Positions 11,236 to 42,715 are shown, counted from the stretch's first letter. The stretch: 42,922 nucleotides of DNA from a virus (IMGVR_UViG_3300013132_000091:1-42922), one strand, 5' to 3'. A program made the numbers and translations. Notes: generated from the sequence alone by a model not told the origin.

Positions 11236-11238
11236 GCC

Positions 11239-12145: not shown

Positions 12146-12181
12146 GCGCGGCAGTTCAAAGCCGGTCCACGAGGAAGCAGC

Positions 12182-12844: not shown

Positions 12845-12862
12845 TCCAGATCGGGGAACACC

Positions 12863-15056: not shown

Positions 15057-15058
15057 TC

Positions 15059-15496: not shown

Positions 15497-15499
15497 CCG

Positions 15500-16883: not shown

Positions 16884-17431
16884 TCCGCTTTCTGACCGGG
16901 TTGAGCCGTGGCAAACTGGCCGTTGGCGTCCTTGGCGCCCTGCTGGTGGGTTCGATCCTGACCAACTGCGCCACCAACAACCGACTGCAGGCCGAGCGCC
17001 TGGCGCACCAGACCACCCAAGCCCAGCACGCCCAGCTGGCGGCCGCGGCCGAGCAGCTACGCGCACAGACCGAGCAATCCCGCCGCAAGGCAGAACAGGA
17101 GCTGGTAAATGCCCAGGAAACCCACGCCCAAGAAGTCGCCGCCCTTCATCTCCGCCTCAACCATGCTGTTGCTGCTGGCCGTGTGGCTTCTCAGCGGCTG
17201 CAAGACGCCGCCCAAGCCGCTGCCGAGCGAGCCCGTGCGCAGTGTGCAGATTCCACCGCTGCCGAAGTACGCACGGCAACCGGAGACGCCCTCGATGTGT
17301 TGGCCGACGTGCTTGGACGCATTGACCAGCGAGCGCAAGAACTGGCAGACATCGCTGACCAGCGATACCTTGCCGGCCGCGCCTGCGAGCGAGAGTATGA
17401 AAGCGCCCGCAAAGCCCTGACGGAGAACTGA
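16880..17431 (+). CDS. Rz: Spanin inner-membrane subunit (Rz-like)
   Basis: 183 residues from ATG 16880, overlapping the endolysin stop. A single N-terminal membrane helix (KLAVGVLGALLVGSILTNC, 12-30) is followed by a long periplasmic coiled coil rich in Ala, Gln and Glu (AEQLRAQTEQSRRKAEQELV). This is i-spanin architecture: one inner-membrane anchor and a helical periplasmic domain that reaches the outer-membrane partner. Order after the endolysin and the nested lipoprotein Rz1 confirm it. Confidence 0.8.
   Translation: MIRFLTGLSRGKLAVGVLGALLVGSILTNCATNNRLQAERLAHQTTQAQHAQLAAAAEQLRAQTEQSRRKAEQELVNAQETHAQEVAALHLRLNHAVAAGRVASQRLQDAAQAAAERARAQCADSTAAEVRTATGDALDVLADVLGRIDQRAQELADIADQRYLAGRACEREYESARKALTEN
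17109..17420 (+). CDS. Rz1: Spanin outer-membrane lipoprotein (Rz1-like), nested in Rz
   Basis: 103 residues in the +1 frame of Rz, entirely inside it. ATG 17109 has AGGAG seven bases upstream. A basic N-terminus (PRKPTPKK), a hydrophobic run (MLLLLAVWLL) and lipobox LLSGC (Cys31) give a type II signal peptide. The mature part is Pro-rich (KTPPKPLPSEPVRSVQIPPL), the hallmark of o-spanins. Rz and Rz1 together fuse inner and outer membranes in the last lysis step, which implies a Gram-negative host. The C-terminal part is longer than in most Rz1 proteins. Confidence 0.8.
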   Translation: MPRKPTPKKSPPFISASTMLLLLAVWLLSGCKTPPKPLPSEPVRSVQIPPLPKYARQPETPSMCWPTCLDALTSERKNWQTSLTSDTLPAAPASESMKAPAKP

Positions 17432-22000: not shown

Positions 22001-24657
22001 ACCTGATCCCGTTTGACCCGAACAAGCTGTACCGGCTTCGCGTGAGGGTACGCCGGACGGCCGGAACCGGGACGTTCTACCTTGGATGGGCCGGTGTCGC
22101 CGCTGACGGTGTGACCCTTGTGAACTCAACCGGTGGAAACTCATACTCAGGGCAGCACTACCATGCTGTTGTCGGCTCATCCCCTGGCACCGCATGGACT
22201 GAGTACACCGGATATACCAAAGGTCACGGGGCCAGTGCCGGCACGAGTGGCAACGGGCTCTTGGCTTCGCCCAGCAAGATGCACCCGAATGTGCGCTATC
22301 TCCGCCTGTTGGTGCTGGTCAACTACAACGGCGCCGCAGGCATCACCGAGGTCGGCCAGATCACGGTCGATGACGCCGAGGTCAAGGAGATCGAATCCGG
22401 CCTGAACACAGCCATCGCAACCAAAGCCAGCCAGACCGCCCTGAACGACTTGAGCACGCGAGTCGATGCGACCGAGGACGGCATCCTGATCCAAGGCGGC
22501 CAGATCACGGCGCTGCAGGGCGATTTGGAACTGGTGGAGAACGGCCTGGCGACCAAGGCAGACGCGAGCGCCGTGAACGCGATTGCAACCCGCATCGAGA
22601 GCACGACGGGCGGCATTGTGACCAGCAGCGGCAGCACGGTGGTCGGCCTGCAGAACAGCATCAGCACCGCAGACGGCAAAGCGGTGGCGGCGCAGGCGAC
22701 GGCGAACGCGGCCAACACACTGGCCGGCACAAAGGCGGACGCCAGCGCCCTGACGACAACGAACACCAACGTGTCGAACCTTGCCGAAACGGTGTCGGCG
22801 CAGGCCGGGCAGATCACGACGATCCAGTCTCGCGTGAATCGAGTGGTGAACTACTTGATTCGGTCAGCTGGATCGAGTTCGCAGAGCAGTTCATACCCCG
22901 GTGTTTTTTCTGAGGCTGGGGCTGCGCTCACCGCCGCCGTGAGGTCATATGTGTTGGTCGTCTTCAACGGGGCTACTGGCGCGATGGAGTCGGCTGTCCA
23001 TTACGACGTGTTCGGTAATGGCGAGGTTGCGGAAGGACGTAATGCCGCTGCGCTTGCTGCTGCATTGAATGCGCTTGGATCGGACAAGGTTGTTGCCGTC
23101 TACACCTGGGACGAGCCGCGCAACAACCGCCTCACAAGCGGACTTGATGCCGCCATGTATCGGTGCGGTGCCAGTCGTAGCATCTTCGGCGCGCCGGACT
23201 CAGCATTTCGATACCGCAGCGCCTACATCCTGGTGGGCGTCCCTGGAGTCGGTGAAGGCGCCGGTATTGAGCGCTACGCTGGCGCCACGGATTCGGACCC
23301 TCTGGCGTACTGCGAATACAGCCTGCAACTTGTCAATGGGCGCCCGGTCGGCATGGGCGGCAACCCGCTCAACGCAGCGGTTCAGACCGAGATCACCACC
23401 CGCGCCACCCAGACCGGCGAGCTGTTCGCAAAGTACACGGTCAAGATCGACACCAATGGGTATGTGTCGGGCTTCGGTCTGGCCAGCACAGCGAACAACG
23501 CGACCCCGTTCAGTGAGTTCATCGTCCGAGCGGACAGTTTCGCCATCGCCTCGCCCAGCGGCCCAGGCATTGCGCCGGCAGAGCCGTTCATTGTCCGCAC
23601 CACGCCGACAACCATCGGCGGCGTGAGTGTCCCGGTGGGCGTCTACATGCAAGACGCATTCATCCAGAACGGCACGATCACCAACGCCAAGATCGCAAAC
23701 CTCGCGGTCGATGACGCCAAGATCGCCAGCCTGTCGGTTTCCAAGCTGACGGCGGGCAGCATCGCGGTCGGCCAGCATGCGCAGTCCACCGGCTACGTGG
23801 CCGGCTCCAGCGGCTGGCGTATCAACGGCAATGGCACGGCTGAGTTCAGTGGCGTGGTGGTGCGCGGCACGATCTTCGCCAGCCAGGGCGCCATCGGCGG
23901 CTGGACCATTGGCAGCAACTACCTGCAGTCCACGACCTACGTGCTGGGCACCAGCGGCACGCGGTTCAACAGCGATGGCACGGGGCAGATCGGCGGCGTC
24001 ACGATCTACTCGCAGGGGCTGGGCGCCGGATCGACGGCCTACGACACGGGGGCGGGCGCGTGGATCGGGCGTGACGGTCGGTTCTCGCTGCGCAATGCCG
24101 GCGGCACGCAGTACCTACGATGGGACGGAACCGCCCTGCAGATTTCCGGCGCATTGCAGGCCGCGACGGGTACGTTTGCCGGCTCACTGAGCGCTGCCAC
24201 CGGAACATTCTCGGGCGCCTTGAGTGCAGCAACTGGTACGTTCAGCGGGAGCTTGACCGCCGATGCGGTGAATGCGGTGAATACGATCAATTTGGCCGGG
24301 CAGGCCGTGACGATACCTGTATCTGCTTACACGTCTGGAAGCGTTTCAGGAAATTCAACAGCCCAAACAGCTCCAACATTTGTGTCCACAGGGGCGCCAG
24401 TCCTGATTTTGTTCTCGGCGCAGTCAACCATCGTCGACTCAGGCGGTGCGGGCGACGGTGTGCTCAATTTGGACATACGCAGGAACGGCTCAACCATCAT
24501 TACCCGAACACTTCAAGCCGGGAAGCAGTTTTATACCGTGATGGTCGTTGATTCTCCACCTCCTGGCAGCACAACTTACACAGCAGTTTGTGCACCTTCT
24601 ACAGCAACGCACTCAACGAGCAGAAGGGCGCTGTTTTGTCTGGAAACAAAGCGATGA
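19045..24657 (+). CDS. Giant tail fibre/host-specificity protein, gpJ-like C-terminus
   Basis: 1,870 residues. Order: N-terminal anchor (1-75); beta region 80-200; Ala-rich coiled coil 220-440; jelly-roll-like domain about 450-600; repeated heptad units (KADASALNALETRVTSAE and variants, about 640-930); a second jelly-roll-like domain about 930-1125; more heptads. An ILEI-like domain follows at about 1270-1430 (VVAVYTWDEP, then SAYILVGVPG). The gpJ/DUF1983-type module starts at about 1450 (KYTVKIDTNGYVSGFGLAST), with three AATGTFSGxL repeats and a distinct tip (1740-1870). Such proteins are trimeric and determine adsorption. ILEI and tip segments have weaker third-position G/C than their surroundings, suggesting exchange. 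Confidence 0.8.
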   Translation: MTNRKDLPSPSSPNFLARVREELHALLGKTGSDRDRALTLRDALETGVLVPGPGGSLVPGVGTGGGGTVEPYEPDLTPPPQPGAFTATPAISHILISQAAPFYTQGRGHGRTRVYGAQWVSGPLPVFADAVEVGRFAGTVWGMPSNPATTWHLWIKWESQDGAPSATPSGGTNGVAVTTGQDVALLLDALAGQISASELASSLATPIGQIPGLVSGLAQEAIDRAQGDAAEAAARAAALAQEAADRAAAISSSASAQAASLAAEVDNRVAAISAVDSAIRADLATADAAVVSSLTSAFTDADAATLASANSYTFSKSEINTAISAMGTQLTTNFTAADAATLATAQNFTYSRSAIDAADAATLSTLRSEFAAADTTTLASAQDFTYSRATIDSAISSSASTLRAQITGGSTATDLNLLTSGLLYQMRETSAAQDAALSQQITLLSAGAGEQFDCSNIWYFDSSVEGWTANITTSTTVSAVSGWLRMAASTGTQSGRMFQSPAALGIDGAKYPQVRLRVRKVGSPTWVGRLYFITTANSTWDTTKSVVVTEPTYNANGIGLLTFNMPAGWMGATIAQVRFEASTSITTSAYFELDWVAVGRPSPGASSAQLQALQSAMMAGDDANAQNIITLNAALTGKADASALNALETRVTSAEGVNTSQGSSITSLQNSVTTINNTLTNKADASALNSLTTRVTTAENNITSQGGSITTLNNSLTTTNTNVTAAQTAANNAATLAGSKGKVIVQSAAPDVADRLAQNLWIDTTGGANTPKRWNGSAWVAVTDKVATDAAAAAAAAQATANTKADASALNALTTRVTTAENTITSQGSSITSLNNALTTTNNTVATKADASALSALDTRVTSAEGVNTSQGTAITSLQNSVTTLNNTVATKADTSALTALSNTVTTQGNTLTATANQANVLQARLSNIRDIFSETWDGSDPLSRWQSYDGAGEQVIVSVTDGVGGKALQVGNNAGNDMRWLVHRDLIPFDPNKLYRLRVRVRRTAGTGTFYLGWAGVAADGVTLVNSTGGNSYSGQHYHAVVGSSPGTAWTEYTGYTKGHGASAGTSGNGLLASPSKMHPNVRYLRLLVLVNYNGAAGITEVGQITVDDAEVKEIESGLNTAIATKASQTALNDLSTRVDATEDGILIQGGQITALQGDLELVENGLATKADASAVNAIATRIESTTGGIVTSSGSTVVGLQNSISTADGKAVAAQATANAANTLAGTKADASALTTTNTNVSNLAETVSAQAGQITTIQSRVNRVVNYLIRSAGSSSQSSSYPGVFSEAGAALTAAVRSYVLVVFNGATGAMESAVHYDVFGNGEVAEGRNAAALAAALNALGSDKVVAVYTWDEPRNNRLTSGLDAAMYRCGASRSIFGAPDSAFRYRSAYILVGVPGVGEGAGIERYAGATDSDPLAYCEYSLQLVNGRPVGMGGNPLNAAVQTEITTRATQTGELFAKYTVKIDTNGYVSGFGLASTANNATPFSEFIVRADSFAIASPSGPGIAPAEPFIVRTTPTTIGGVSVPVGVYMQDAFIQNGTITNAKIANLAVDDAKIASLSVSKLTAGSIAVGQHAQSTGYVAGSSGWRINGNGTAEFSGVVVRGTIFASQGAIGGWTIGSNYLQSTTYVLGTSGTRFNSDGTGQIGGVTIYSQGLGAGSTAYDTGAGAWIGRDGRFSLRNAGGTQYLRWDGTALQISGALQAATGTFAGSLSAATGTFSGALSAATGTFSGSLTADAVNAVNTINLAGQAVTIPVSAYTSGSVSGNSTAQTAPTFVSTGAPVLILFSAQSTIVDSGGAGDGVLNLDIRRNGSTIITRTLQAGKQFYTVMVVDSPPPGSTTYTAVCAPSTATHSTSRRALFCLETKR

Positions 24658-28495: not shown

Positions 28496-31400
28496 ATGGA
28501 CCTCAACGAAGCACGCAAGCGACTCCCTGAACTGGCCGGACTGAGCGACGAGTCCGCGCTGAACGTCATCCATCAGGTCTACTACCCGGCCATGGAAAAG
28601 GCGGCGCTGGCCGAGCGCCTGGGCTACAAGGCCCCGCCGCCGCCCACGCCCGACCGCTCCATGGTGCGCGCAGCCGGGGACATCGGACTTTCGCTGGGCC
28701 AGGGCGCAGCAGGCGCGTTCAAGGCGCTGTCGGACGTTGCCGGCGCTGACAACGTGGTGTCGCAGAAGCTGGGCGATATGTCCGAGTTTCTGGGCAACCA
28801 GAAGAGCGAGCAGTCCAAGGCCACGCTCAAGGCCAGCCAGGAGCGCGTGAAAGCCGCCGAGGAATCGGGCAGCACATGGGAAGAGGCCAAGGCTTACATG
28901 GAGATGCTGCTGGACCAGCCCGGCGAGTTTCTGGCGCAGGGTGTGGGTTCGTTCGCCACGCTGGGCCTTGGCAAGCTGGCTCAGGGCGTGAAGCTCGCCA
29001 GCGCAGCCAAAGCGGCCGGCATGAGCAAGCAGGCTTTCTTGGCATCCAAGGCGGGGCAAGAGGCCATCAAGGAAGCGGCCAAGTTCGGCTTCAAGGCCAA
29101 CGTGGGCATTGGCTCCGCGATGGGTGTGGGTGCCGTGAAGGGCTCGCAGTACGAGCAGACCTACAGCAACGCCATCGCCCAAGGCATGCCGGAAGATCAG
29201 GCGCAGGCACTGGCGACCGAGGCGCAGCGTTACGGCGGCAGCGGGACCATGCAGCAACTGCTGGGCGGCGGGCTGGGTGCGCTGGCGGCATCGACTGGCC
29301 CGATTGAACGGCTGGTGATGGGACAGGGCGCGCGCAATGCCGCGACCGGCACCATGGCCGCGATGGGAAAAGGCTTCTTGGTCGAAGGCAGCACGGAAGG
29401 CGCGCAGGGCGGTCAAGAGCGGTTCGCAGGGAACACCGCCGCCATTGATGCCGGCGTGCTGGACCCGTCCAAGCGCATGCAGGGCGTTGTCGGTCAGGGC
29501 CTCATGGAAGGCACGATTGGCGGCGTCATTGGCGCAGCGGCCGGGCCGTTCGAGGCGCAAGCGCCGATCAACCTGCCGAACCAGGCGCGCGAACCCCTGC
29601 CGCAACCCCAGCCAGCACCGCCCGTGGAGCCGGCCGGGCCGATGACGAGGGCGCTGAATGTTGGTGCCCAAAAAGCAGCGCCATTGCCGCCGCCCGTATT
29701 GGATGAGTCGGTCCTCCGCGACAACGGCGTGTACCCTCCGCCAGTCCTTGACGATGCAGCCATCCAGTCAGGAATTTTGAGCGGCGATGAACTGCGCCAG
29801 TTTGATGCGAAGCAGAGCAATGCAGCCACGCAGGCACAGCCGGCGCCCAATGCCGAGACAGCCAACGAAGATCCTGTAGACGAGCAATTCACACAACCCA
29901 TTGTGAGCGCGGGTTTCCAAGAGGCACTGCGCCAAGCTGAAGCGGATGGCATCGACACAGAGGCTGTGTTGGAGCGGGCCGCGATGAACACGCAAACCGG
30001 ATCGGATGAGGACTATGAGCGCGAGGCATTGGCGCTGATTGCTCAGGCGCGGATTTGGGATGCGAAACAGCCAAATGATGGTTCTCCCGCAGCTCCCGCA
30101 GGGAACGCAGGGAACGCAGGGAATGAAAGCCCGCAACCCCTTGCGCAACCCCTTGCGCAACCCCTTGCGACCGACATCCTGAACCCAAAGGGATTTCCAT
30201 TCAAAACCAGAAAGACCGCCGAACTTGCCGCCAAGAAGACGCCGGGCGACATCGTGCCGGTGGAAGGTGGTTTTGTTGTCCGACCACAGGAGAGCACCCT
30301 TGCAAACACCGCCGCCCAAGAAGTCCCCGAGGCAGACGCAGCACCAGTGCAAGCCGATCAGCCCGCAGAAGCCGTGTCCTTTGCCGACGCCGCAGATGAA
30401 GCTGGCGGCTATGCTGTACGTGGAAGCGATGAACAGGGGGCCGTGGAGGCACTGAGCGATGTCCAAAACGCACCGCAACCAACCACAGCAGCAGGAGTCC
30501 CGACAAAAACCCGACAAAAACCCGACATTGGCGCCACGGCAGTTGAAGCGCAAGCGCCAGCGCGAGGCGATGGAGCCGCCGCCGCTGGAGTACCCGACGC
30601 GGGAGCCGGTGCCGGTGTACGGGCGGATGGGGTAGGAAAAGAACAATTCGACCCACAAGGTACTAAGCCTGGTACACCTGAATACGAATACGCATTTGAA
30701 AAATGGGTCTCCGGTCAGTCGGACAAAAGATTGGAGATCAATCGCACTCGGCAGCGTCAAGAAAACACGGCGGCAGTCCAAAAGCGCAACGGCTGGCGAT
30801 CAAAGATCCGCAAGTGGTTCTTGGGAGCCAAGGACGGAGACACGATTACTGACACTGGAACAGGTCAGAACTACAAAGTTATTGAGAAGAAGCGCAAGGA
30901 CGGAACAAAGACCAAGACGCTGGTAGCCACAGATGAGAACGGAGCCCCGCTTGATGACGGCCGAGCTGCAACAGGAATCGCACAAGTCGGGGATCGGGTT
31001 GAAGGATTGGATGACGGTGGTATTGACGATGACACCGGATCTGCAACTCCAGAAACTGCCGGCCAGTCGCTTGCATCAAGCCTTGGGAAACAATTGGAAG
31101 ATGGCGATGCCAAGACAGCATCTCCTGCAGCCACTGACGTTCAAGCCGATGGGGTGAAGAAGCCGCCATTCGCCAAGAAGGAGGATGTCGAGCACCTGTT
31201 CGGCATCGACCAGAAGCGGAATGCCGCACTGGACCGCATCGCAAAGGGGACGGCCTACTTCGGAACCAAGGAAAAGGCGGCCGATTTTGTGGCCAAGTCC
31301 GGCATCAAGGACACGCACGAGGTTGTGCAGGCCAAGCCCGGCCGCTTTGAGATCCGCGCCAAGGCTGGAAGCGGTATGCAAACCGCAGATGCGCCGGCAG

Positions 31401-34400
31401 AGCAGGCCGCGCCGTCTGCGGCGCCGGAAAGCACTGTCAAGGTTCCGCCCGACATCGACGCCGCCATCGCTGGCCAGATGCAGAAGCAGAAAAACCGTGT
31501 CGCGCGCTTGAAGCGCGAAGCGGAGCAGCCAGGCATGACGCTGGACGAAAAGCGCCAGGCGCAGACCAAGGTGCTGGCCGCTGAAACCACGCTGCGCAAG
31601 ATGCGGACCTCCGTGTTCGACGCCGAGGATGCCGCTATCAAGGCACTGGAAGCCGGCGATGTGGCTGCATTCGACGCCCATGCCGACCTGTTCCCTGATG
31701 TCGTGGCTGCGCTTGAAAAATCCATCGGACAGAAGCCTGCCGAGTCCACGAAAGGCCCAGGCGAGCAACTGGCCGAACTCAATGCCGAGCTGGAGCGCCA
31801 GGGGCCGGTGCAGAACGCCAATACCCGCGCCAAACGCGACCAGATCCGCCGCGAGATTGCCGAGCGGGATTTCCCGGAGATCCTGAAAGCGGTTGACGGC
31901 GACATCGATACTGCCGAAGACCTGAACCGGGCATTCCAGTACGCCGGGGACGAGCCAAGGGCCAAGACGGTCGAGCGGATCTTGAAGAAGCGCGGCATCA
32001 CGGCCGAGTATCAGAAGGTGTGGACCGGCCGGCTGCTGGCCCAAGACGGTCAACAGGACGATACCCTGGAAGACCCGGAGATGGCGGCCTACGAGAATGG
32101 CCTGACGGCGAATACGCGGGCGCAAGACCGTGAAAAACTTGCCCCAGGCACCAGGGTTAACGGCTCCGCCGAGCGCGCAGCAGCCGACCGCCTGCAGCAG
32201 ATCTACAACCAGATGGATGGCATCAACCGGCGCAACACCCGCGAGGGCAATGCGAAGGAAACCATCAGAACCGTGATTGAAGAACTGCGCAAGCCGCGCA
32301 CCGTCAGCAGCGTGGTCCCCATGCTGGACGGAGCCGCCAACGGCCTGGACCGGAACTATGGTGCGCTGGCCGACGTGGTGCGCGAAGTTGCCGACAGCCT
32401 GAACGGCGAAGCAGCGCCAGCAAAGCCGACGCCGGCCAAGCCTGCCGCCACCGCCAACACTATCTTCACAGAGGACGCCGCCGCCGCCGCGCGCGCCTTG
32501 CTCAAGAAGAAACTCAGTGGCGGCACGCTCAACAGCGGAATTGACCCCGAGATCCTGCAAGCCGGCATCACGCTGGCCGGCTACCACATCGAGAAGGGCG
32601 CCCGCACGTTTGCCGCCTACGCCAAGGCCATGGTGGGAGACCTGGGCGACAGCGTGAAGCCGTACCTCAAGAGTTGGTACGCCGCCGTGGCGCTGGACCC
32701 GCGCGCCACCGGATTTTCTGGCGACATGACCCCGCTTGGGGATGTCATGGCCGCCGATGTGGACAAACTGGCCGCTGAGGCTGATACTGTTGAGGACCAA
32801 ACCCGTGACGACAATGCAACACGCCCACTGGATCAGCCAGGCCAAGGAGCACTGGAAGGAGCACCGGCCGCAGATGTTCAAGGAACTGCAGAAGCAGGGC
32901 CTGCTGGACGCGCGCCTGCAGGAAGCCGCGGAGGCGACCAGCCAGGCGATGCAGGAGCTGATGGCACAGGGGTTCGCGCACCACGAGGCATGGGAAGCGA
33001 CCCGGCAGCAGTACCTGTTCCTGCCGGAAGAACCCGGAGCCAGCGAGGAAGCGCCGACAAGCGACGGGCTGCGCCTGATGCGAGAGATGAACGAGGGCCT
33101 TCGCTATTTGGGGATGACGGAGCAGGAGATAGCCGCGGCGAAACTGGACGAGTAGAGCCGCCCGCCTTCCAGCCGACCGACTTCACCATTGAAGAAGACT
33201 TCGCGCTGGGTGAGGGTGGCCAGAAGGCCAAGTACCGCGCCAACGTCGATGCCATCCGCCTGCTGCAGAAACTCGAAGCCGAGCAGCGCCATGCTACACC
33301 CGACGAACAGAAGGTGCTGGCCAAGTACGTCGGCTGGGGTGGCATTGCCCAGGCATTCGACGCCGAGCACAAGGATTGGGGCCGCGAGTACGCCGAGCTG
33401 CGCGAGCTTCTGAGCGACGAGGAATACAACACCGCGCGCCGCTCTACCAGATACGCGCACTACACCAGCCGCCCGATCATCCAGGGCATGTACGACGCCA
33501 TGAAGCGCTTTGGCTTCACGGGCGGCAAGATGCTGGAGCCAGGCGCCGGGGTGGGCAACTTCATGGGCCTGATGCCCGCCGACCTTCGCAGCGGTTCGCG
33601 CCTGACCGGCGTGGAGCGCGAGCGCATCGCGGCCGGCATCGCGCGCCACTTGTACCCGAACCAGAACATGCAACTGCAGGACTTCACGCAGTTCAACGCT
33701 CAGGACGGGTACTTTGATGCGGTGATCGGCAACCCGCCGTTTGCCGCCGATGGCCTGGTGGATCAGTCGGGCCGCAAGCACCTGTCCGGCATGGCGGTGC
33801 ATGACTACTTCTTTGCAAAGTCCGTGGACATGCTGCGAGACGGTGGCGTGTTCGCCGCCGTGGTGTCCAACGGGTTCATGGACAAGGCCGGCGACCGGGC
33901 GCGCAAGTACATCGGCGAGCGCACCAAGCTGCTGGGTGCCATCCGCCTGCCCAACAACGCCTTCGCCAAGAACGCCAACACCGAAGTGACGACCGACATC
34001 GTGTTCCTGCAGAAGCTGCCGGAATCCGAGTGGGGCAGCAAGGCGGCCAAGGCCGACTTGAAGCGCTGGCTGGACGTGACGACCATCCCTGACCCAAAGG
34101 GTGGCGATCCCATCAAGATCAACCAGTATTTTGCGGACAACCCGCAGATGATGCTGGGCGAGTACGGGCGCTTTGGCACCATGTACGGCCCGGACCAGCC
34201 CGCCCTGGTGGCGCGGCCCGGCCAGGACACCGCCGCCCTGCTGCGCGCCGCCATCGAGCGCCTGCCGGCCGGTGTGTACCAGCACGCCGCTGTGATCGGC
34301 ACCAACAAGGCCACCCGCGACGTGATCGAGGCGCTGCGCGACAAGAGCGTGCAGGAGGGCGGTTTCTACGTGGACGGCGGCAAGCTGTACCAGCGCATGC

Positions 34401-37400
34401 AGGACGTGGCCGGCGAGTCGTCGGCCCGCCTGCTGACGCCCGAGACGCAGTGGACCGAGAAAACCACGCTGGGCGAGTCTCGCTACGAGCGACTGGTGCA
34501 GTTGGCCGGAATGCGCCGCACGCTGCGCGATCTGCTGGCCGCTGAACTGGCCGACGACAAGGCCATGGAAGGGCTGCGCAAGAGCCTGAATGAGCAGTAC
34601 GACGCCTACGCCGCCAAGCACGGCCTTATCAACGACCCGAGCACCGCCCAGGTGTTTGACGACGACCCGGATTTCCCGCTGCTGGCCGCACTGGAGATGA
34701 ACTACGCCCGCGGCATGGGGCCTGCAGCCGCCAAGGCGGCCGGCATCAAGCCCTACAAGTCCAAGGCCGACAAAGCGCCGATCTTCGCGCGCCGCGTGAT
34801 CGAGAAGCGCCAGGCGGTGCAGAAGGCCGAGACGCCAGAGGACGCGCTGAACGTGTCCATTGCCGAGCGCGGCCGGATCGACGCCGGCTACATCGGCCAG
34901 TTGCTGGGCCGCCCGGCCGACGAGGTGCTGGAGGAACTGACCAAGGGCGACAAGCCGGCGCTTTTTGTGGACCCGGTGACGGGCGAGCATGTGTTGCGTG
35001 ACGCCTACCTGTCCGGCAACGTGCGCAAGAAGCTGCAGCAGGCGGAAATGGCCGGCATGGATCGCAACGTGCGCGCTCTGATGGAGGTTCAGCCCGAGGA
35101 CGTGGGCGCACACGAGATTTCCGCGCGCATTGGCTCGCCCTGGGTGCCAACCGAGGTCTATCAGGACTTCATCAAGGATCTGCTTGGCGATGGCACCAAG
35201 GCCACGGTGGCGTATGTGCCCACCAACAGCGCATTCTTCATCAGCGTCAAGGCCGGTTCGGACACCGCCAACAACCTGACCTACGGCACGAGCAAGATGG
35301 ACGCCGAGGCGATCCTGAACGCGCTGCTGAACAACCGCACGGTCAAGGTCACGTACACCGACTCCGATGGCAAGACCCATCTGGACAAGGAAGGAACCGA
35401 CGCCGCCATGGAGAAGGCAGCCGACATTCGGGCGAAGTTCCAAGACTGGCTCTTTGCGGATGCCGAGCGGGCCGAGGTGCTGGTGCGCTCCTACAACGAC
35501 ACCAACAACAACTACGTGACGCGGGTGTACGACGGCGCGCGCATGGAGTTCCCCGGAAAGGTGCCTGACTCCATCATCAAGTTCCGCCGCCACCAGCGCA
35601 ACGCGATTGCGCGGATCGTACAGGACCGCACGGCGCTGCTGGACCATGTGGTCGGCGCCGGCAAGACCTTCACGGTGATCTCAGGCGCGATGGAACTCAA
35701 GCGCACCGGCCTGGCCAAGAAGCCGCTGATCGTGGTCCCGAACCACCTTGTCAAGCAGTGGGCGGCCGACTTCTACCGCCTGTATCCTGGCGCCAACATC
35801 CTGACGGCCACCAAAAAGGACTTTGCGCGCGAGAACCGCCGCCGCTTCCTGGCCAAGATCGCAACCGGCGATTGGGATGCCGTCATCATGGCGCATTCCT
35901 CGTTCGGATTCATCCAGCCTGACCCGGATTTTGAAGTCGAGTTCAACGAGAAGCAGGTGGCCCATATCAAGGCCGCCATCGAGAAGGTCGATGCTTCGGA
36001 CGGCGACGAGAAGGGCAAGAAGCGCACCGTCAAGCAGTTGGAGGGCCTGGTGGAGCGCCTGGAGAACCGCATCAAGTCGCTGCGCGACAAGGCGGTGGAC
36101 AACCTGCTGGACTTCAAACAGGTCGGCGTGGACCAGTTGTTTGTGGACGAGGCGCACTTGTTCAAAAACCTGATGTTCAGCACCAAGATGCAGAACGTGC
36201 AGGGCCTGGGCGACAGCAAGGGATCGCAGCGCGCCTACGATATGTACGTCAAGGTCAACCAGCTCTACGCCCAGAACGGCCGCGGCCAGGGCGTGGTGTT
36301 TGCCACGGGTACGCCCGTGTCGAACACGCTGGCCGAGATGTACCACATGATGCGTTACCTGATGCCGGCCGCCATGGACGAGGCAGGCTTCCAGAGTTTC
36401 GACGCCTGGGCCAACACCTTTGCATCGGTCGAGCAGGTGTGGATGCAGAAACCATCCGGTGACGGCTACAAGGCCAGCGACCGCATGGGCACATTCAGCA
36501 ACGTCCACGAGTTGCTCAAGATGTTCGATCAGGTGTCGGACACCGTGACGATGGAGGACATCAAAACGGCCTATGCCGAAGAAAATGGCGGCAAGGCATT
36601 CCCGCTGCCCAAGCTCAAGAACGACCGCCGCACGCCGGTTTCGCTGGTGAAGTCCGAGGCCCAGAACGCCTACATGGACGAGATCGCCGAGCGCGCCAAG
36701 AAGCTGGAGGCCAAGAAAGGCCCGCCGCAGAAGGGTGAAGACAACTTCCTGACCATCATGTCGGACGCCCGCAAGGCCGCCATGGACGTGCGCCTTGTGC
36801 GCGAGGACATCAACGACCGCGAGCCTGGCGCCCGCATCGACCGATCCACCGACGAGGTGGTGAGCCGCTACAAGCAGTACGACAGCGTGAAGGGCACGCA
36901 GTTGGTTTTCTCCGACCTGGGAACGCCGCTCAAGAGCGCCAAGAAGGAACTCAAGGAGTACGAGGAACTGAAAGCCCGCATCGACGCCGGCAACGATGCC
37001 GATGTGCAGGCCGACGCCGCTCTGGGCGACGAAGCCGCACAGGCCAAGATCGAGGATGCCGAGGCCGCCCAGGAAGAACTGGACGCCAAGGGCCGCGACT
37101 GGCTGGGTGCCATCAAGGCCGCGCTGCGCGGTTTCTCAGTGTACGACGACTTCAAGGCTGCGCTGATCGAGAAGGGCATCCCGGAAAACGAGATCGCATT
37201 CATCCACGACTTCAACACCGACGACCAGAAGGCCGCGCTGTTCCGCAAGGTCAACGCCGGCCAGATCCGCGTGCTGCTGGGTTCGACCCAGAAGATGGGC
37301 GCCGGCACGAACGTGCAGGAGCGTCTGGTGGCGCTGCACCATCTGGATGTGCCATGGAAGCCCAGCGACATCGAGCAGCGCGAGGGGCGCATTGTTCGCC

Positions 37401-40400
37401 AGGGCAACCGCCTGGCCGACACAATCCCCGGTTTCGAGGTCGAGATTCTGGCCTACGTGACCCAGGACACGCTGGATATGCGGATGTGGCAGACCCAAGA
37501 GGTCAAGTTGAAGATGGTCAACCAGCTTCGCACCCGCCAGATCAGCCGCGAGATCGAAAACCCGTTCGAGGAAGCCGAGATGTCGGCCGGTGAGATGCAG
37601 GCCGCGGCCACCGGCAACATGGACTTGCTGCGCGAGATCCAGCTCCGCTCCGACCTAAAAAAGCTGGAGCAGCGCAAGCGGTCCTTCGACGCCCAGCGCA
37701 ACGAACTGGCGTCGCGCCGCAAGCGCGCCACGGACAGCCTGCGCCGCCTGCCCGAGCAGATCGCGGATCTGGAGGTGCTGGACAAGGGCGCGCGCGACTA
37801 CTTCACCGGCCTGGAGGATCGATCGTTCAAGGCCACCATCAACGGCGACACCTACACCAGCCGGACAGAAGCCGGCGCCAAGCTGCGCGAACTGGCTGCA
37901 GCGCATGAATCCGCCCTGGAAGCCCGCCGCAAGGCTGGCGACGATGCAGGTAAGGCCGCGGCAGACGCCCGCGAAGACTTGTCGCCCGCCGAGCGCACTG
38001 GCATTGCCATGGACGCCAAGGACGCCTACCTGAAATCGAACCCGCTGCCGAAGATGGCCGTGGAGTTCAACGGCAAAACCTACGGGTCCAAGTCGGCGCT
38101 GGCCGACGCCATGACAGAGTTTGCCGGCGACTCGGAGCCCATCGAGTGGAGTTTCGACGGGCAAGAGTTCATCCGCCGCAAGGACATCGCCGCCGCCATT
38201 GAAGCGGTTGTTGCCGAGGCAATCGACACCGACACCGAGGCCAGCATCGGCACCATCGGCGGCTTCCAGGTCACGATTGAAGGCCAGCGCGACAAGTTTG
38301 GCTCTTTCGTGGACATGGTGGTCACGCACAAGGGCAAGACCTACGACAGCACCGCGCGGATCAACGGCGACGACAAGAAGCAGGCCGTGGACATCGTGGT
38401 TCGCGCGGCCGAGCGCATGGTGGCTTCGCTTCCCGACAAGCTGCAGTTTGCCAAGTACGACCTGGCGCGCGCCAAGAAGGCCATGCAGGAGCTGGAGAAG
38501 ACCAGCATGCCGGACGCCTGGCCGGACATGGGCAAGCTGGAGAAGGCCCGCACCGAGCACAAGGAAGTGCTCAAGCGCCTAGCCGGCGAGGGCAAGAAGG
38601 AAGGCGAGGAAGGTGGCGCCGACACGACGCTCTCCATTGACGACAGCACCGGCCCGGCCGATACTGCCGACTATGGACCAGCAACCCAAGCCCACCGAGA
38701 CGCAGCCGCCCGACTCGCTGAATCCTTCGCAGACCGAATCGAAGGCGGTGGATCTCACGCTGATCTGCTGGACGCAGTTGCTCCGGGAGACGGAAAGCGC
38801 GGACAAGCCGCCACTGCTGTTGCCAATATCGCCCGACGACTTTTCCGACGACAAGTTGTTTTCGTGAAGTTCAAGGGCACACCCCTGTTCAACGGGGTGG
38901 TGTCCAAGTCGGTCCCCGGCGTCATCTTCCTGAACATCGACAGCCAGAAGCCGCTGTTGTCCGTGCTCGGCCACGAGCTGCTGCACGAGATGGCCAAGAG
39001 CCACCCGACCATGTACGCGAACCTCTCGCGCCGCCTGGACGACCTCATCAAGAACGAAACCGAGTACGCGGTTCGGACCTACAACGCCTACAAGAAGGCC
39101 GGCATTTCCACCAAGGGCCTAGACACCCGCGAGGAACTGGAGGCCGACATCGTGGGCGACAACTTCATGGACGCCGGTTTCTGGCAGGCCATGGGGGAGA
39201 ACCAGCCGGGCCTGTTCAAGCGCATCGTCAACTTCGTGACGGCGTGGCTGGACAACCTGAGCCAGAAGATCACCGACTACCGGCCGTTTGGAACCGACGA
39301 GTTCCTGACCGACATTGCTGCTGCACGCGATGCGGTGGCCGGCGCCATGCGCGAGTTCAGCGGCGCCGAAGCTGGAGCAGTGGCCGACCCGACTGATGGG
39401 GATGTGAAGCTCTCAGCCGCCCGTGGTACAAACAACGCCATGCCGGTGTTCAACAACGCATCCGGCGACTTCAACCCTGATCTTGACAAGTTCTGGATCA
39501 AGAAAGGGCGTGAAGAAATCCGTGGCGAGGGCATGTCGGATGCGGACTACAACACCGCCGTCGCTGAGTACGCCAATGCATGGCGCATCAATGATCTGTT
39601 GGTTGAACAACTCGGATGGCGCCGTCGCGGGTCAAGCAATGTCTCGTCCTCTACGTACTTTGAAAAAACCATCGAACTTGATGAGCAGAATGAGAATGGT
39701 GAAGACACACTGACCTACGAGGTTCGCGTGACTGACCACGACGACTATCACCCGGCAAGCGGTGGCATATCGAAGCGGTTTCAGGTCAATTTCCGATCAG
39801 TTCAAAGTCAATGGTCTGACGTTGACATCACGCCAGACATGAGCACAAAGGAGGCCATGTCATTGCTGCGCGGCACTCTGGAGACTGACCAATCCGCGCC
39901 GGTATCTGGCGGCGCGAAGCTCTCAGCCGCAGAGAAGCAAGACCAGACCCAGACGCCCAACAACGCCGACATCCGGTTCAGCGTGGTAGACGACATCAAG
40001 CGGGCCTATGCCGACCGCGTGCCCGATGCCGTGCGCGACCGCATCGAAGACCTGACCAGCTCGCAACGCGGATTCAACCGCTGGTGGCACAGCACCGTGG
40101 GCACCCAGCTCCACAAGGCCAAGGTGAACAAGGAGTTCGGTCGGGTCTATTACGCCGTGCAGGACTTCATGAAGGACGTGAGCCGCATGGCGACCTTGGC
40201 GGCCGACCAGGCGCCGGACCTGCTGCCGCATATTGACAGCCTGGCCGACATCAAGAAGGTGGCGCCGCAGATGGGCATTGCCGGGCACCGCCAGCGCAAG
40301 GCCGACATGAAGGCGGCGAGCGATGCGCTGTTCGATGGCACGCTGCGCTACACCCGTGACGCCTACGGCGAACCGGTGGAGGCCCAGAACGAAGCCGATG

Positions 40401-42715
40401 CCGGCCTTGTTTGGACCGACGCCGAACTCAAGGCGCGCGGCCTGAACGACACGGCGATCAAGCTGTACCGGCAGGCGCGCAGCGCCATCAACCAGTCGCT
40501 GGACAACCTGATGGCGGCCGACGTGTACCGCATGCTGACCGCCGTGACACCGGACGCCCTGGCGAACACGCCGGCCGAGCATGCCGCGATCATGGCCAAG
40601 GTGCGCAAGGCCGCGGCATCGGACAGTCCTCTGCAGGTGCTGCAGATTGCCGGCCGCGCGCTGGACCAGCAGGCCGACGTGCTGCGCAAGCAACTGGCGA
40701 CCTTGAAGAAGCAGATGGACGAGGACTATGCCGATGGCATGACATCGGCCTACACGCTGGCACAGGATGCGCTCAAGAAGATCGAGAGCATCAAGGAGCG
40801 CATGGACGAGAAGTACGAGCGGGTGCGACAGCTCAAGGCGGAGGGCTATGCGCCGCTGATGCGCTTTGGCCGGTACGCGGTGGACGTGCTGGATGCGGAC
40901 GGGAACCGGGCTTTCTTCGGGCTGTACGAGTCGCAGTACGAAGCCAACCGCGCCGCGCGCCGGTTTGCCGAGCAGGGTTTGCGGGTGAGCCAGAGCGTGA
41001 AGTCGGCCAAGGAGTTCGAGATGCTCAAGGGCATCAGCCCCGAGACGGCCATGCTGTTCGCGGATCTGCTGGGGGTGGAGAAGGACGCGGCCATGCAGAA
41101 GTGGCTGCAGAACGCCCTGGCCGAACAGTCGGCGCTCAAGCGGCACATCCGCCGCAAGGGCATCGCCGGGTTTGACGATGACGCCGGCCGGGTGGTGGCG
41201 GCCTTCCTGACCTCCAACAGCCGGGCCGCATCGCGCGCCTTGCACGGCTTGCGCATTCAGGAGAGCGTGGAGAACGTGCGGGCCGGTGATGTGAAGGACG
41301 AGGCGATCAAGCTGGCCGACTACGTGAACAACCCGGTGGAAGAGGCGCAGGCGGTGCGCTCGCTGCTGTTCGTCAACTACATCGGCGGCTCGGTGGCGTC
41401 GGCGCTGGTGAACTTGACCCAGACGGTGGTGCAGACCTTCCCGTATCTGGCGCAGTACGGCGGTGCGCGCAAGGGCGCCAGCCGGGTGACGGCGGCCATG
41501 AAGCTGGCAATGGGCAAGATCGAGGACGCCGAGCTGGCCGAGGCGGTCAAGCGCGCCGAGGCCGACGGCGTCATCAAGCCGCAGGAAGTGTTCCAGCTCC
41601 AGGCCGAGGCCAGCCGCACGCTGGGCTCAGACATCCGGGTGCGCGCGGCGCTGTCGCTGTGGGGTTCGTTCTTCCAGATGGCCGAGCAGTTCAACCGCCG
41701 CGTGGCCTTCATTGCGGCCTACCAGACGGCCAAGCAGGAGGGCATTCGCAACCCGTTCGCCTTTGCCGAGAATGCGGTGGACGAGACGCAGGGCGTGTTC
41801 AACAAGGGCAACCGGCCCGATTGGGCGCGCGGCGCGGTTGGCGCGACAATTTTCACCTTCCGTACGTTCACCATCCAGTACGTCGAGTTCTTGAAGCGCC
41901 TGCCGCCCAAGGAGCGCGCGCTGGCGCTGGGTGTTCTGGTGCTGCTGGCCGGTTTCCGTGGCTTGCCGTTTGCCGAGGACGCCGAGGACATCATCGACAC
42001 CGCCGCGCAGGCGATGGGCTACAACTTCACGACCAAGGCGCAGATGGACCGGTTCTTGGTGTCCACCCTGGGCCAGCCGTTCGCGGACTTCCTGCAGCGC
42101 GGCGCCAGCGGCACCGGCATGCTGCCGTTCGATGTGTCGCAGCGCCTGGGCATGGCCGACCTGCTGCCGGCGACCGGGGTGCTCAAGGCCAGCGAAACCC
42201 GCAAGGATGAGCAGATCCTTGAAGTGCTTGGTGTTACCGGTGGATTCATTCGTGACGCGCTCAAGGGAGAGGTCAGGCCGATTGCCTTGCGCAACGCTGC
42301 CAAGGGCATCGAGATGTACGACCGCGGCATCTACACCGACACCCGTGGCCGCAAGGTGATGGATGTCGGCCCGGTGGATGCGGCGATGAAGGCCATCGGC
42401 CTGCAGCCGGCCGGTGTTGCCGCCGAGTCGCGCAAGGCTGGGTCGGTGTACGAGATGCGCGCGCTGTTCACCAAGGTCAAGAGCGAGATTTCCGAGCAGA
42501 TGGCGCTGGGCCAGTTCGAGAACGACCAGGCCAAGATCCAGAAGGCGCGCGACCGGCTGGCCGACTGGAACGCGAAGAACCCGGATGCTCAGATCCGCCT
42601 CAACGGCCAGGCTATCCGCCGCCGCGTGACGGAAATGCGCAAGGACCGCTCGGAGCGCCTGTTGAAGACCACCCCGAAGGAGTTGCGTGCTCAGGCGCGG
42701 GAGGTGCTGGAGTGA
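28496..42715 (+). CDS. Giant polyvalent virion protein (DarB-like MTase-helicase, zincin, PLxRFG, LPD38-like)
   Basis: 4,739 residues, one third of the window. Order: Gly-rich amphipathic N-terminus (1-355); linkers with a short PFKTRKTAELAAKK unit (~565) and a related unit ~920-955; conserved LPP segment TLNSGIDPEILQAGITLAGY (~1335-1355). An N6-adenine methyltransferase follows, with motif I EPGAGVGNF (~1680) and NPPF (1746-1749). The SNF2-like helicase has Walker A GAGKT (2387-2391), DEAH (2551-2554), ATGTPVSN and QREGRIVRQG (from 2961). Then come NGxxYxS repeats, a zincin HELLH (3493-3497) with EELEAD, PLMRFG (4120-4125) and an LPD38-like C-terminus. Such proteins are packaged and ejected with DNA and protect it from restriction (DarB of P1). 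No Shine-Dalgarno precedes ATG 28496. Confidence 0.9.
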   Translation: MDLNEARKRLPELAGLSDESALNVIHQVYYPAMEKAALAERLGYKAPPPPTPDRSMVRAAGDIGLSLGQGAAGAFKALSDVAGADNVVSQKLGDMSEFLGNQKSEQSKATLKASQERVKAAEESGSTWEEAKAYMEMLLDQPGEFLAQGVGSFATLGLGKLAQGVKLASAAKAAGMSKQAFLASKAGQEAIKEAAKFGFKANVGIGSAMGVGAVKGSQYEQTYSNAIAQGMPEDQAQALATEAQRYGGSGTMQQLLGGGLGALAASTGPIERLVMGQGARNAATGTMAAMGKGFLVEGSTEGAQGGQERFAGNTAAIDAGVLDPSKRMQGVVGQGLMEGTIGGVIGAAAGPFEAQAPINLPNQAREPLPQPQPAPPVEPAGPMTRALNVGAQKAAPLPPPVLDESVLRDNGVYPPPVLDDAAIQSGILSGDELRQFDAKQSNAATQAQPAPNAETANEDPVDEQFTQPIVSAGFQEALRQAEADGIDTEAVLERAAMNTQTGSDEDYEREALALIAQARIWDAKQPNDGSPAAPAGNAGNAGNESPQPLAQPLAQPLATDILNPKGFPFKTRKTAELAAKKTPGDIVPVEGGFVVRPQESTLANTAAQEVPEADAAPVQADQPAEAVSFADAADEAGGYAVRGSDEQGAVEALSDVQNAPQPTTAAGVPTKTRQKPDIGATAVEAQAPARGDGAAAAGVPDAGAGAGVRADGVGKEQFDPQGTKPGTPEYEYAFEKWVSGQSDKRLEINRTRQRQENTAAVQKRNGWRSKIRKWFLGAKDGDTITDTGTGQNYKVIEKKRKDGTKTKTLVATDENGAPLDDGRAATGIAQVGDRVEGLDDGGIDDDTGSATPETAGQSLASSLGKQLEDGDAKTASPAATDVQADGVKKPPFAKKEDVEHLFGIDQKRNAALDRIAKGTAYFGTKEKAADFVAKSGIKDTHEVVQAKPGRFEIRAKAGSGMQTADAPAEQAAPSAAPESTVKVPPDIDAAIAGQMQKQKNRVARLKREAEQPGMTLDEKRQAQTKVLAAETTLRKMRTSVFDAEDAAIKALEAGDVAAFDAHADLFPDVVAALEKSIGQKPAESTKGPGEQLAELNAELERQGPVQNANTRAKRDQIRREIAERDFPEILKAVDGDIDTAEDLNRAFQYAGDEPRAKTVERILKKRGITAEYQKVWTGRLLAQDGQQDDTLEDPEMAAYENGLTANTRAQDREKLAPGTRVNGSAERAAADRLQQIYNQMDGINRRNTREGNAKETIRTVIEELRKPRTVSSVVPMLDGAANGLDRNYGALADVVREVADSLNGEAAPAKPTPAKPAATANTIFTEDAAAAARALLKKKLSGGTLNSGIDPEILQAGITLAGYHIEKGARTFAAYAKAMVGDLGDSVKPYLKSWYAAVALDPRATGFSGDMTPLGDVMAADVDKLAAEADTVEDQTRDDNATRPLDQPGQGALEGAPAADVQGTAEAGPAGRAPAGSRGGDQPGDAGADGTGVRAPRGMGSDPAAVPVPAGRTRSQRGSADKRRAAPDARDERGPSLFGDDGAGDSRGETGRVEPPAFQPTDFTIEEDFALGEGGQKAKYRANVDAIRLLQKLEAEQRHATPDEQKVLAKYVGWGGIAQAFDAEHKDWGREYAELRELLSDEEYNTARRSTRYAHYTSRPIIQGMYDAMKRFGFTGGKMLEPGAGVGNFMGLMPADLRSGSRLTGVERERIAAGIARHLYPNQNMQLQDFTQFNAQDGYFDAVIGNPPFAADGLVDQSGRKHLSGMAVHDYFFAKSVDMLRDGGVFAAVVSNGFMDKAGDRARKYIGERTKLLGAIRLPNNAFAKNANTEVTTDIVFLQKLPESEWGSKAAKADLKRWLDVTTIPDPKGGDPIKINQYFADNPQMMLGEYGRFGTMYGPDQPALVARPGQDTAALLRAAIERLPAGVYQHAAVIGTNKATRDVIEALRDKSVQEGGFYVDGGKLYQRMQDVAGESSARLLTPETQWTEKTTLGESRYERLVQLAGMRRTLRDLLAAELADDKAMEGLRKSLNEQYDAYAAKHGLINDPSTAQVFDDDPDFPLLAALEMNYARGMGPAAAKAAGIKPYKSKADKAPIFARRVIEKRQAVQKAETPEDALNVSIAERGRIDAGYIGQLLGRPADEVLEELTKGDKPALFVDPVTGEHVLRDAYLSGNVRKKLQQAEMAGMDRNVRALMEVQPEDVGAHEISARIGSPWVPTEVYQDFIKDLLGDGTKATVAYVPTNSAFFISVKAGSDTANNLTYGTSKMDAEAILNALLNNRTVKVTYTDSDGKTHLDKEGTDAAMEKAADIRAKFQDWLFADAERAEVLVRSYNDTNNNYVTRVYDGARMEFPGKVPDSIIKFRRHQRNAIARIVQDRTALLDHVVGAGKTFTVISGAMELKRTGLAKKPLIVVPNHLVKQWAADFYRLYPGANILTATKKDFARENRRRFLAKIATGDWDAVIMAHSSFGFIQPDPDFEVEFNEKQVAHIKAAIEKVDASDGDEKGKKRTVKQLEGLVERLENRIKSLRDKAVDNLLDFKQVGVDQLFVDEAHLFKNLMFSTKMQNVQGLGDSKGSQRAYDMYVKVNQLYAQNGRGQGVVFATGTPVSNTLAEMYHMMRYLMPAAMDEAGFQSFDAWANTFASVEQVWMQKPSGDGYKASDRMGTFSNVHELLKMFDQVSDTVTMEDIKTAYAEENGGKAFPLPKLKNDRRTPVSLVKSEAQNAYMDEIAERAKKLEAKKGPPQKGEDNFLTIMSDARKAAMDVRLVREDINDREPGARIDRSTDEVVSRYKQYDSVKGTQLVFSDLGTPLKSAKKELKEYEELKARIDAGNDADVQADAALGDEAAQAKIEDAEAAQEELDAKGRDWLGAIKAALRGFSVYDDFKAALIEKGIPENEIAFIHDFNTDDQKAALFRKVNAGQIRVLLGSTQKMGAGTNVQERLVALHHLDVPWKPSDIEQREGRIVRQGNRLADTIPGFEVEILAYVTQDTLDMRMWQTQEVKLKMVNQLRTRQISREIENPFEEAEMSAGEMQAAATGNMDLLREIQLRSDLKKLEQRKRSFDAQRNELASRRKRATDSLRRLPEQIADLEVLDKGARDYFTGLEDRSFKATINGDTYTSRTEAGAKLRELAAAHESALEARRKAGDDAGKAAADAREDLSPAERTGIAMDAKDAYLKSNPLPKMAVEFNGKTYGSKSALADAMTEFAGDSEPIEWSFDGQEFIRRKDIAAAIEAVVAEAIDTDTEASIGTIGGFQVTIEGQRDKFGSFVDMVVTHKGKTYDSTARINGDDKKQAVDIVVRAAERMVASLPDKLQFAKYDLARAKKAMQELEKTSMPDAWPDMGKLEKARTEHKEVLKRLAGEGKKEGEEGGADTTLSIDDSTGPADTADYGPATQAHRDAAARLAESFADRIEGGGSHADLLDAVAPGDGKRGQAATAVANIARRLFRRQVVFVKFKGTPLFNGVVSKSVPGVIFLNIDSQKPLLSVLGHELLHEMAKSHPTMYANLSRRLDDLIKNETEYAVRTYNAYKKAGISTKGLDTREELEADIVGDNFMDAGFWQAMGENQPGLFKRIVNFVTAWLDNLSQKITDYRPFGTDEFLTDIAAARDAVAGAMREFSGAEAGAVADPTDGDVKLSAARGTNNAMPVFNNASGDFNPDLDKFWIKKGREEIRGEGMSDADYNTAVAEYANAWRINDLLVEQLGWRRRGSSNVSSSTYFEKTIELDEQNENGEDTLTYEVRVTDHDDYHPASGGISKRFQVNFRSVQSQWSDVDITPDMSTKEAMSLLRGTLETDQSAPVSGGAKLSAAEKQDQTQTPNNADIRFSVVDDIKRAYADRVPDAVRDRIEDLTSSQRGFNRWWHSTVGTQLHKAKVNKEFGRVYYAVQDFMKDVSRMATLAADQAPDLLPHIDSLADIKKVAPQMGIAGHRQRKADMKAASDALFDGTLRYTRDAYGEPVEAQNEADAGLVWTDAELKARGLNDTAIKLYRQARSAINQSLDNLMAADVYRMLTAVTPDALANTPAEHAAIMAKVRKAAASDSPLQVLQIAGRALDQQADVLRKQLATLKKQMDEDYADGMTSAYTLAQDALKKIESIKERMDEKYERVRQLKAEGYAPLMRFGRYAVDVLDADGNRAFFGLYESQYEANRAARRFAEQGLRVSQSVKSAKEFEMLKGISPETAMLFADLLGVEKDAAMQKWLQNALAEQSALKRHIRRKGIAGFDDDAGRVVAAFLTSNSRAASRALHGLRIQESVENVRAGDVKDEAIKLADYVNNPVEEAQAVRSLLFVNYIGGSVASALVNLTQTVVQTFPYLAQYGGARKGASRVTAAMKLAMGKIEDAELAEAVKRAEADGVIKPQEVFQLQAEASRTLGSDIRVRAALSLWGSFFQMAEQFNRRVAFIAAYQTAKQEGIRNPFAFAENAVDETQGVFNKGNRPDWARGAVGATIFTFRTFTIQYVEFLKRLPPKERALALGVLVLLAGFRGLPFAEDAEDIIDTAAQAMGYNFTTKAQMDRFLVSTLGQPFADFLQRGASGTGMLPFDVSQRLGMADLLPATGVLKASETRKDEQILEVLGVTGGFIRDALKGEVRPIALRNAAKGIEMYDRGIYTDTRGRKVMDVGPVDAAMKAIGLQPAGVAAESRKAGSVYEMRALFTKVKSEISEQMALGQFENDQAKIQKARDRLADWNAKNPDAQIRLNGQAIRRRVTEMRKDRSERLLKTTPKELRAQAREVLE
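30101..30127 (+). repeat. 9-bp tandem repeat in the giant gene
   Basis: GGGAACGCA twice plus a degenerate third copy, encoding a Gly-Asn-Ala run. It keeps frame and lies in an interdomain linker, so slippage would only alter linker length. Confidence 0.7.
30133..30168 (+). repeat. 12-bp tandem repeat in the giant gene
   Basis: Three exact copies of GCAACCCCTTGC encode Pro-Leu-Ala-Gln repeats. It lies five bases after the 9-bp array in the same linker. Copy number is a multiple of three bases per unit, so variation would be in frame. Confidence 0.85.
30300..30455 (+). CDS. Nested small gene A in the +1 frame of the giant
   Basis: 51 residues, TTG start at 30300 with AGGAG seven bases upstream. 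Sequence is basic and Pro-rich, then hydrophobic (PQMKLAAMLYVEAMNRGPWR). From about 30280 to the stop nearly all third positions in this frame are G or C. The giant's own frame gives an Ala/Glu/Asp linker with mixed third positions. This is the signature of the small frame being the older coding sequence. It ends three bases before nested gene B. Function unknown; the start codon is the least certain part. Confidence 0.4.
   Translation: MQTPPPKKSPRQTQHQCKPISPQKPCPLPTPQMKLAAMLYVEAMNRGPWRH
30459..30635 (+). CDS. Nested small gene B in the +1 frame of the giant
   Basis: 58 residues from ATG 30459, with GGAGG nine bases upstream and only three bases after the stop of nested gene A, so translation could be coupled. 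Very basic and Pro/Gln-rich (THRNQPQQQESRQKP, then RQLKRKRQREAMEPPPLEYP). Third positions are about four-fifths G/C in this frame but mixed in the giant's frame, which here gives only a low-complexity Ala/Gly/Asp linker. Short basic proteins like this are common in phages, but no family is recognised. Confidence 0.5.
   Translation: MSKTHRNQPQQQESRQKPDKNPTLAPRQLKRKRQREAMEPPPLEYPTREPVPVYGRMG
30954..31157 (+). CDS. Nested small gene C in the +1 frame of the giant
   Basis: 67 residues from ATG 30954, with GGAG nine bases upstream. Helical with hydrophobic residues spaced as in a small domain (GLKDWMTVVLTMTPDLQLQK, then RLHQALGNNWKMAMPRQHLL). Third positions favour G/C in this frame; in the giant's frame the same DNA gives an acidic Gly/Asp/Thr linker. 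It follows the A/T-richer insert-like segment of the giant. Not recognised. Confidence 0.4.
   Translation: MTAELQQESHKSGIGLKDWMTVVLTMTPDLQLQKLPASRLHQALGNNWKMAMPRQHLLQPLTFKPMG
32805..33155 (+). CDS. Nested gene D in the +1 frame of the giant (phage helical protein)
   Basis: 116 residues, GTG start at 32805 with GAGGA eight bases upstream; ATG 32814 is an alternative. The protein looks like a real folded phage protein: HWISQAKEHWKEHRPQMFKE, then AMQELMAQGFAHHEAWEATR, then QQYLFLPEEP. I recall hypothetical phage proteins with this HWKEHRPxM...EAW...P.EE layout. Third positions are almost all G/C in this frame. The giant's frame here encodes only a Gly/Ala/Arg/Asp-rich disordered linker before the methyltransferase, with many A/T third positions. 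Function unknown. This is the strongest of the nested genes. Confidence 0.7.
   Translation: MTTMQHAHWISQAKEHWKEHRPQMFKELQKQGLLDARLQEAAEATSQAMQELMAQGFAHHEAWEATRQQYLFLPEEPGASEEAPTSDGLRLMREMNEGLRYLGMTEQEIAAAKLDE
38673..38867 (+). CDS. Nested small gene E in the +1 frame of the giant
   Basis: 64 residues from ATG 38673. Pro/Thr/Gln-rich start (DQQPKPTETQPPDSLNPSQT), then an amphipathic part (VDLTLICWTQLLRETES) and an acidic end (LLLPISPDDFSDDKLFS). G/C at third positions switches from the giant's frame to this frame right at the ATG. No good Shine-Dalgarno is seen; GTG 38613 upstream would give 84 residues. It underlies the linker between the helicase part and the zincin. Function unknown. Confidence 0.45.
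   Translation: MDQQPKPTETQPPDSLNPSQTESKAVDLTLICWTQLLRETESADKPPLLLPISPDDFSDDKLFS
39404..39930 (+). repeat. Direct repeat pair flanking a domain cassette in the giant gene
   Basis: G-T/C-GAAGCTCTCAGCCGC occurs at 39404-39420 and 39914-39930, exactly 510 bases (170 codons) apart, both encoding KLSAA in frame. The DNA between is A/T-richer at third positions than both flanks and encodes a compact-looking domain (FWIKKGREEIRGEGMSDADY, then VRVTDHDDYHPASGGISKRF). The layout suggests in-frame insertion of a domain cassette between short repeats. Confidence 0.65.

Follow-up and report, generated by a model that had tools for sequence, protein, structure and literature searches.

DarB of phage P1 is built on an LPD36-MTase-SNF2 dyad. 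The dyad and LPD36 were described in a survey of polyvalent proteins (2017, PMC5512222), from which the name LPD36 is taken and in which neither TnpV nor overlapping genes are mentioned. The P1 darB gene starts 117 nt ahead of the methylase module and the gene upstream of it is divergent; it is therefore without linker and without small gene. P1 DarB functions without a nested gene, so any partner encoded in such a gene is not universal. TnpV (PF14198) is described in Tn4451 and in elements of C. difficile, with a postulated Xis-like role. The Rz/Rz1 genes of phage lambda exemplify a short gene nested out of frame, over its full length, within a longer gene of the same strand, with a start of its own. 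At the locus described here, unlike Rz/Rz1, a multi-kilobase gene for an enzyme encloses the small one, and such pairs are found repeatedly among phages and plasmids from several phyla.

The window analysed is a stretch of 42,922 nucleotides of viral DNA (IMGVR_UViG_3300013132_000091). Its positions 28496-42715 (+ strand) form a single ORF of 4739 aa, the giant, which encloses the nested small gene. The giant matches PHROG 10089 (DarB-like antirestriction) with E=0, and its Pfam matches are Eco57I/N6_Mtase (PF07669) followed by SNF2/ResIII/Helicase_C (PF00176, PF00271). By these matches it is a DarB-like polyvalent protein, a predicted adenine methyltransferase fused to an SNF2 helicase. The order of methylase and helicase is that of P1 DarB, whereas the linker and the nested gene are absent from P1 darB. 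A conserved segment of the giant (aa 1306-1411, positions 32411-32728, + strand), matching positions 1960-2061 of phrog_938, lies just upstream of a low-complexity linker at 32790-33179 (+ strand), which consists to 90% of A/G/D/E/P/Q/S/T/R, has low entropy, and has lost the wobble signal of the giant. Under this linker lies the small gene (32805-33155, + strand, the giant's +1 frame), with a GTG start, an alternative ATG at 32814, a TAG stop, and a predicted product of 116 aa. A Shine-Dalgarno AGGA (32793-32796, within GAGGA at 32792-32796, + strand) stands 8 nt ahead of the GTG. The start of the methylase module follows at 33180-33946 (+ strand), with the motif LGEGGQKAKY, read from the translation, and then the Eco57I-like methyltransferase (PF07669 at aa 1728-1817); the LGEGGQKAKY segment is likely LPD36.

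In a preliminary description, five open frames of the window (30300-30455, 30459-30635, 30954-31157, 32805-33155 and 38673-38867) were read as a set of small genes nested under linkers of the giant. All five are present, share the +1 shift relative to the giant (28496-42715), and coincide with its low-complexity stretches, as described. The reported G/C bias at third positions is also present (0.74-0.87 in the +1 frame, against a giant GC3 of 0.38-0.52 in the same places), but it is no evidence of coding: the third position of the +1 frame is the first position of the giant, whose G/C content is set by linkers rich in A/G/D/E/P/Q. Shine-Dalgarno-like runs of at least 4 nt were correctly reported at four of the five frames (30300, 30459, 30954 and 32805) and are absent at 38673; the giant as a whole has such runs at 11.7% of its +1-frame starts, and the five starts had been picked. 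The runs at 30300 and 30459 are 5 nt long, against a background of 2.4%. Synonymous re-coding of the giant gives an expectation of 25.8 +/- 2.7 for +1 runs that reach 55 codons, with 30 observed, and a chance of 0.19-0.94 for each reported interval to be open in +1. Length and GC bias in +1 match the composition of the giant and are therefore uninformative for all five frames.

Among about 100 relatives searched, no relative of the other four frames was found at E<0.2, and the viral contigs searched contained no close relative of 29696-31195, the segment with the three frames of 30300-31157. The frame 38673-38867 is open in its sole near relative (L146, 87% DNA identity), with 11/4/18 substitutions at giant positions 1/2/3, a pattern of constraint on the giant frame and not on +1. 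The proposed set thus reduces to 32805-33155 alone, the remaining four showing no conservation and the length and bias that composition predicts. These four were rejected as genes, being without homologs and, for 38673-38867, under giant-frame constraint; they look like by-products of the amino-acid make-up of the giant. The frames at 30300-31157 are unsupported, though without disproof, and a lineage-specific peptide may be made from the frame at 30300 or 30459.

The protein of 32736-33155 has tblastn matches in 21 phage records (E to 2e-18), from phages of Klebsiella, Erwinia, Pseudomonas, Ochrobactrum, Agrobacterium, Sinorhizobium, Vibrio and Microcystis. With an alignment of the phage copies, 72 viral loci and 19 genome loci were gathered, of which 89 are distinct. 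A locus was counted as nested when the small gene lay wholly inside an open frame longer than 1.2 kb; this is the case at 81 of the 89 loci, where the outer frame is a DarB-like methylase-helicase frame, and the offset is +1 in all 81. The GC content of the nested loci ranges from 42% to 69%. At L041 the contig end cuts the locus, with the giant frame open up to there, and at 7 of the 89 loci the small gene occurs without the giant, in some cases with giant remnants, so that it may serve a function independent of the giant. It is very probable that 32805-33155 is a genuine conserved protein-coding gene, wholly nested in +1 within the linker before the methylase module, and an ancient one, deeply conserved across phage genera.

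Some of these records have features of their own. In Pseudomonas phage Itty13 the + strand (10972-23308) contains the nested gene within a DarB-like frame of 4113 codons, and three opposite-strand genes are annotated over it. In phage PBC5 (L008, 9782-16324; noted together with L040) a single indel joins the nested gene to the reading frame of the giant's upstream half. The PBC5 indel, either a real split or an old sequencing error, is the probable source of the C-terminus of the 'endolysin' PHROG 938. Intact small ORFs are present in four bacterial contigs in which the giant is absent or reduced to remnants (L085, L087, L089, L099). In a Pseudidiomarina chromosome (L096, 7974-8762), away from any DarB, the small protein carries a fused C-terminal extension of membrane-spanning appearance.

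The position of the start codon is conserved in nearly all loci. A Shine-Dalgarno 4 nt or longer, spaced 5-9 nt from the start, is found at 72 of the 81 nested loci, compared with 5.8-7.9% of control ATGs, and in the nearest relatives of the window it occupies the place corresponding to the AGGA before GTG 32805. Translation of the nested gene probably begins at this start, served by a Shine-Dalgarno of its own. Across 24 pairs of related loci, one of them counted twice (as L001/L005 and L014/L015), substitutions at positions 1/2/3 number 197/175/443 in the nested frame and 525/357/2037 in the flanking giant. Protein identity is higher in the nested frame than in the giant frame in 23 of the 24 pairs, and the wobble signal of the giant frame is absent within the overlap. 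Judged by the third-position excess, the nested frame is under purifying selection, and the giant frame across the overlap, by its substitutions, evolves as a spacer. A codon-usage frame scan was mis-phased where the training segment began out of frame, and serves as a hint only for in-phase rows (such as L005, L007, L009, L011 and the window).

The nested protein appears to be a helical protein of ~110 aa distantly related to TnpV. The Pfam TnpV profile (PF14198) gives a weak match in 30 of 38 members of the nested family; the protein of the window scores 19.8 bits, below the gathering score of 27 bits. The nested family aligns to the TnpV profile with an hhalign P of 8.5e-5 and a probability of 60% over 47 columns. 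The Xis-like role postulated for TnpV finds no support here. An AlphaFold model of the nested protein shows helices, with good confidence up to about residue 67. Its best match among solved structures is PG0816 (2apl, DUF1896), with rmsd 2.1 over 64 residues and a Z of 7.7, which lies under the chance level expected for helical bundles and below the safe level; the next match has a Z of 4.0. A TnpV model from two sequences showed no clear fold, and the absence of 2apl among its matches is not evidential. NCBIfam holds no family for the nested protein, and a PDB sequence search with it returned no meaningful match.

Canonical TnpV genes are themselves found inside DarB frames. TnpV was traced in records that also hold DarB, and in a gut phage contig (L110) the TnpV gene lies inside a DarB-like frame at an offset of +1. 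The same arrangement is present in seven viral contigs in all, six of them from gut samples, and in one Monoglobus plasmid, so that ordinary gut-element copies of TnpV are nested at a position and offset like those of the window's gene. These eight contigs (L110, L118-L124) have a GC content of 38-54% and Shine-Dalgarno sequences of the AAGG type, and their outer frames contain no stop where 5-12 are expected. The outer frame of L122 stops short of the methylase match, the methylase being in another frame of the contig. In L125 and L126, TnpV has no DarB nearby and is un-nested. Plasmids of Paraburkholderia, Burkholderia, Pseudomonas and Salmonella carry a 101-aa gene within the DarB frame, at the same place and offset as in the phages; the nesting was seen in the five plasmids checked (L104-L107, L115), all Proteobacterial, of 66 with relatives. 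The 101-aa protein aligns with the nested protein of the window at an hhalign P of 0.087, in register over 21 columns, and the two genes are unrelated-looking. In the plasmids, the DarB frame extends upstream past the small gene and is conserved at its N-terminus there. In L104-L107 the DarB annotation begins only after the small gene, yet the frame is open further upstream; the overlap seems to have led annotators to shorten DarB.

DUF1896 (PF08989; PDB 2apl, PG0816) is adjacent to DarB, and its helical fold may resemble that of the nested-protein model, but it is tandem and not nested. At 17 of 18 Bacteroidota loci, DUF1896 is followed directly by a DarB-like match, and at the five where the frame is readable the arrangement is tandem and un-nested in every case. 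In Bacteroides phage BKO1-TP4, DUF1896 is likewise un-nested, just upstream of DarB, and none was found in the order of G004. Scans of viral contigs gave few or no matches to TnpV, the plasmid small gene or DUF1896, and the A3 scan of 300 genomes, run without a positive control, gave no match and is uninformative.

Several other readings of the overlap were considered. It is hardly credible that all five frames of the window are chance open frames, produced by hydrophobic-poor linkers in a GC-rich genome. Length, openness and GC bias of all five are as in synonymous shuffles, and such a reading stands for the four without homologs, but it is refuted at 32805-33155 by homology across genera, start signals, and the third-position substitution excess. 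Ribosomes in the upstream half of the giant might instead shift to +1 and end after the TnpV-like domain, leaving a short form beside the giant. The +1 frame of the window is open from 32730, and the upstream half is in frame with the domain in phrog_938 and in Sinorhizobium phage PBC5. The PBC5 case, however, depends on one indel in a lone old sequence, the start codon and Shine-Dalgarno hold a fixed place in nearly all loci, and at 24 of 80 loci a nested-frame stop lies at most 12 codons upstream of the start; initiation at those loci is therefore independent, counter to an origin by frameshift, which is very unlikely. It is also quite unlikely that the locus consists of three genes (upstream protein, small gene and DarB) with the open frame incidental. 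The Bacteroidota genes are separate, and some plasmid DarB are annotated from downstream of the small gene. Against this, the giant frame is open through the nested gene in 81/81 nested loci, a count conditional on the open frame that defines them (81/89 unconditionally), where 4.4 are expected from the nested proteins and the codon usage of each phage and 27.6 under a harsher control with codons permuted within each gene. Synonymous re-coding predicts 3.9 giant-frame stops per locus, in addition to the 5-12 predicted for the contigs of 38-54% GC, and the plasmid DarB N-terminus is conserved upstream of the small gene. A related DarB-like protein of 4515 aa was detected in virions by mass spectrometry with 51 peptides (PMC9144972). 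The open giant frame fits a single giant polypeptide.

The preferred reading is that the nested protein would be made from its own start within the mRNA of the giant, while the giant frame is kept open and so joins the upstream protein to DarB in a single polypeptide, the linker being an overprinted, unconstrained frame. The small protein would then be co-produced with DarB from one message, as a dedicated partner in activity control, folding or packaging. Small genes of three types occur next to DarB or within it, which suggests that the enzyme has a partner, and it is possible, though short of probable, that the nested protein is such a dedicated partner. The identities of nested protein and DarB correlate over 77 loci (Mantel r=0.84, P=5e-4). 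This co-inheritance, the tight linkage to DarB in most loci and the DUF1896-DarB tandem speak against an otherwise real gene whose product is an independent effector, for instance one that inhibits a host restriction or defence enzyme, placed in DarB by happenstance. Such an effector is rather unlikely, but is favoured by the small ORFs that remain intact without a giant in the four bacterial contigs, by the fusion to a membrane-like region in Pseudidiomarina, and by the housing of the small gene in an antirestriction locus. Returning to the partner reading, its widest form is offered tentatively and is somewhat doubtful: a TnpV/DUF1896-type protein would be an overlooked partner subunit of DarB in phages, plasmids and integrative elements of several phyla, always nested in +1 where DarB was extended or fused by frame opening, and the disordered linkers of the giants would be its overprinted shadows.

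The preliminary description had also suggested that separate genes were fused by the opening of an alternative frame across small genes between them. This is plausible for 32805-33155 and without support for the other four. Small gene and DarB would have come first, the DarB frame being later extended or fused back through the small gene; this appears the simplest order on an unrooted comparison. Both the tandem DUF1896-DarB of Bacteroidota and the linker-free darB of P1 fit a history of frame opening. The three types of small gene may have become nested independently.

In the open-access literature searched for TnpV, DUF1896, nested phage genes and overlaps with DarB, no account of the nesting was found. 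In many phage genera and some plasmids this out-of-frame gene has been missed by annotation, or evaded through DarB starts placed too far downstream. It would point to a new partner of a widespread antirestriction enzyme. It would also be a case for the origin of polyvalent giants by fusion via a new frame across a still-functional gene, with a folded protein read from one frame and linker from the other. Elsewhere in the giant of the window, the first linker contains short tandem repeats with 9-nt and 12-nt units (30088-30169). The GC3 of the giant falls to about 0.5 across 1.5 kb at 29700-31200, even where no +1 frame was reported, as if this segment were a recent acquisition.
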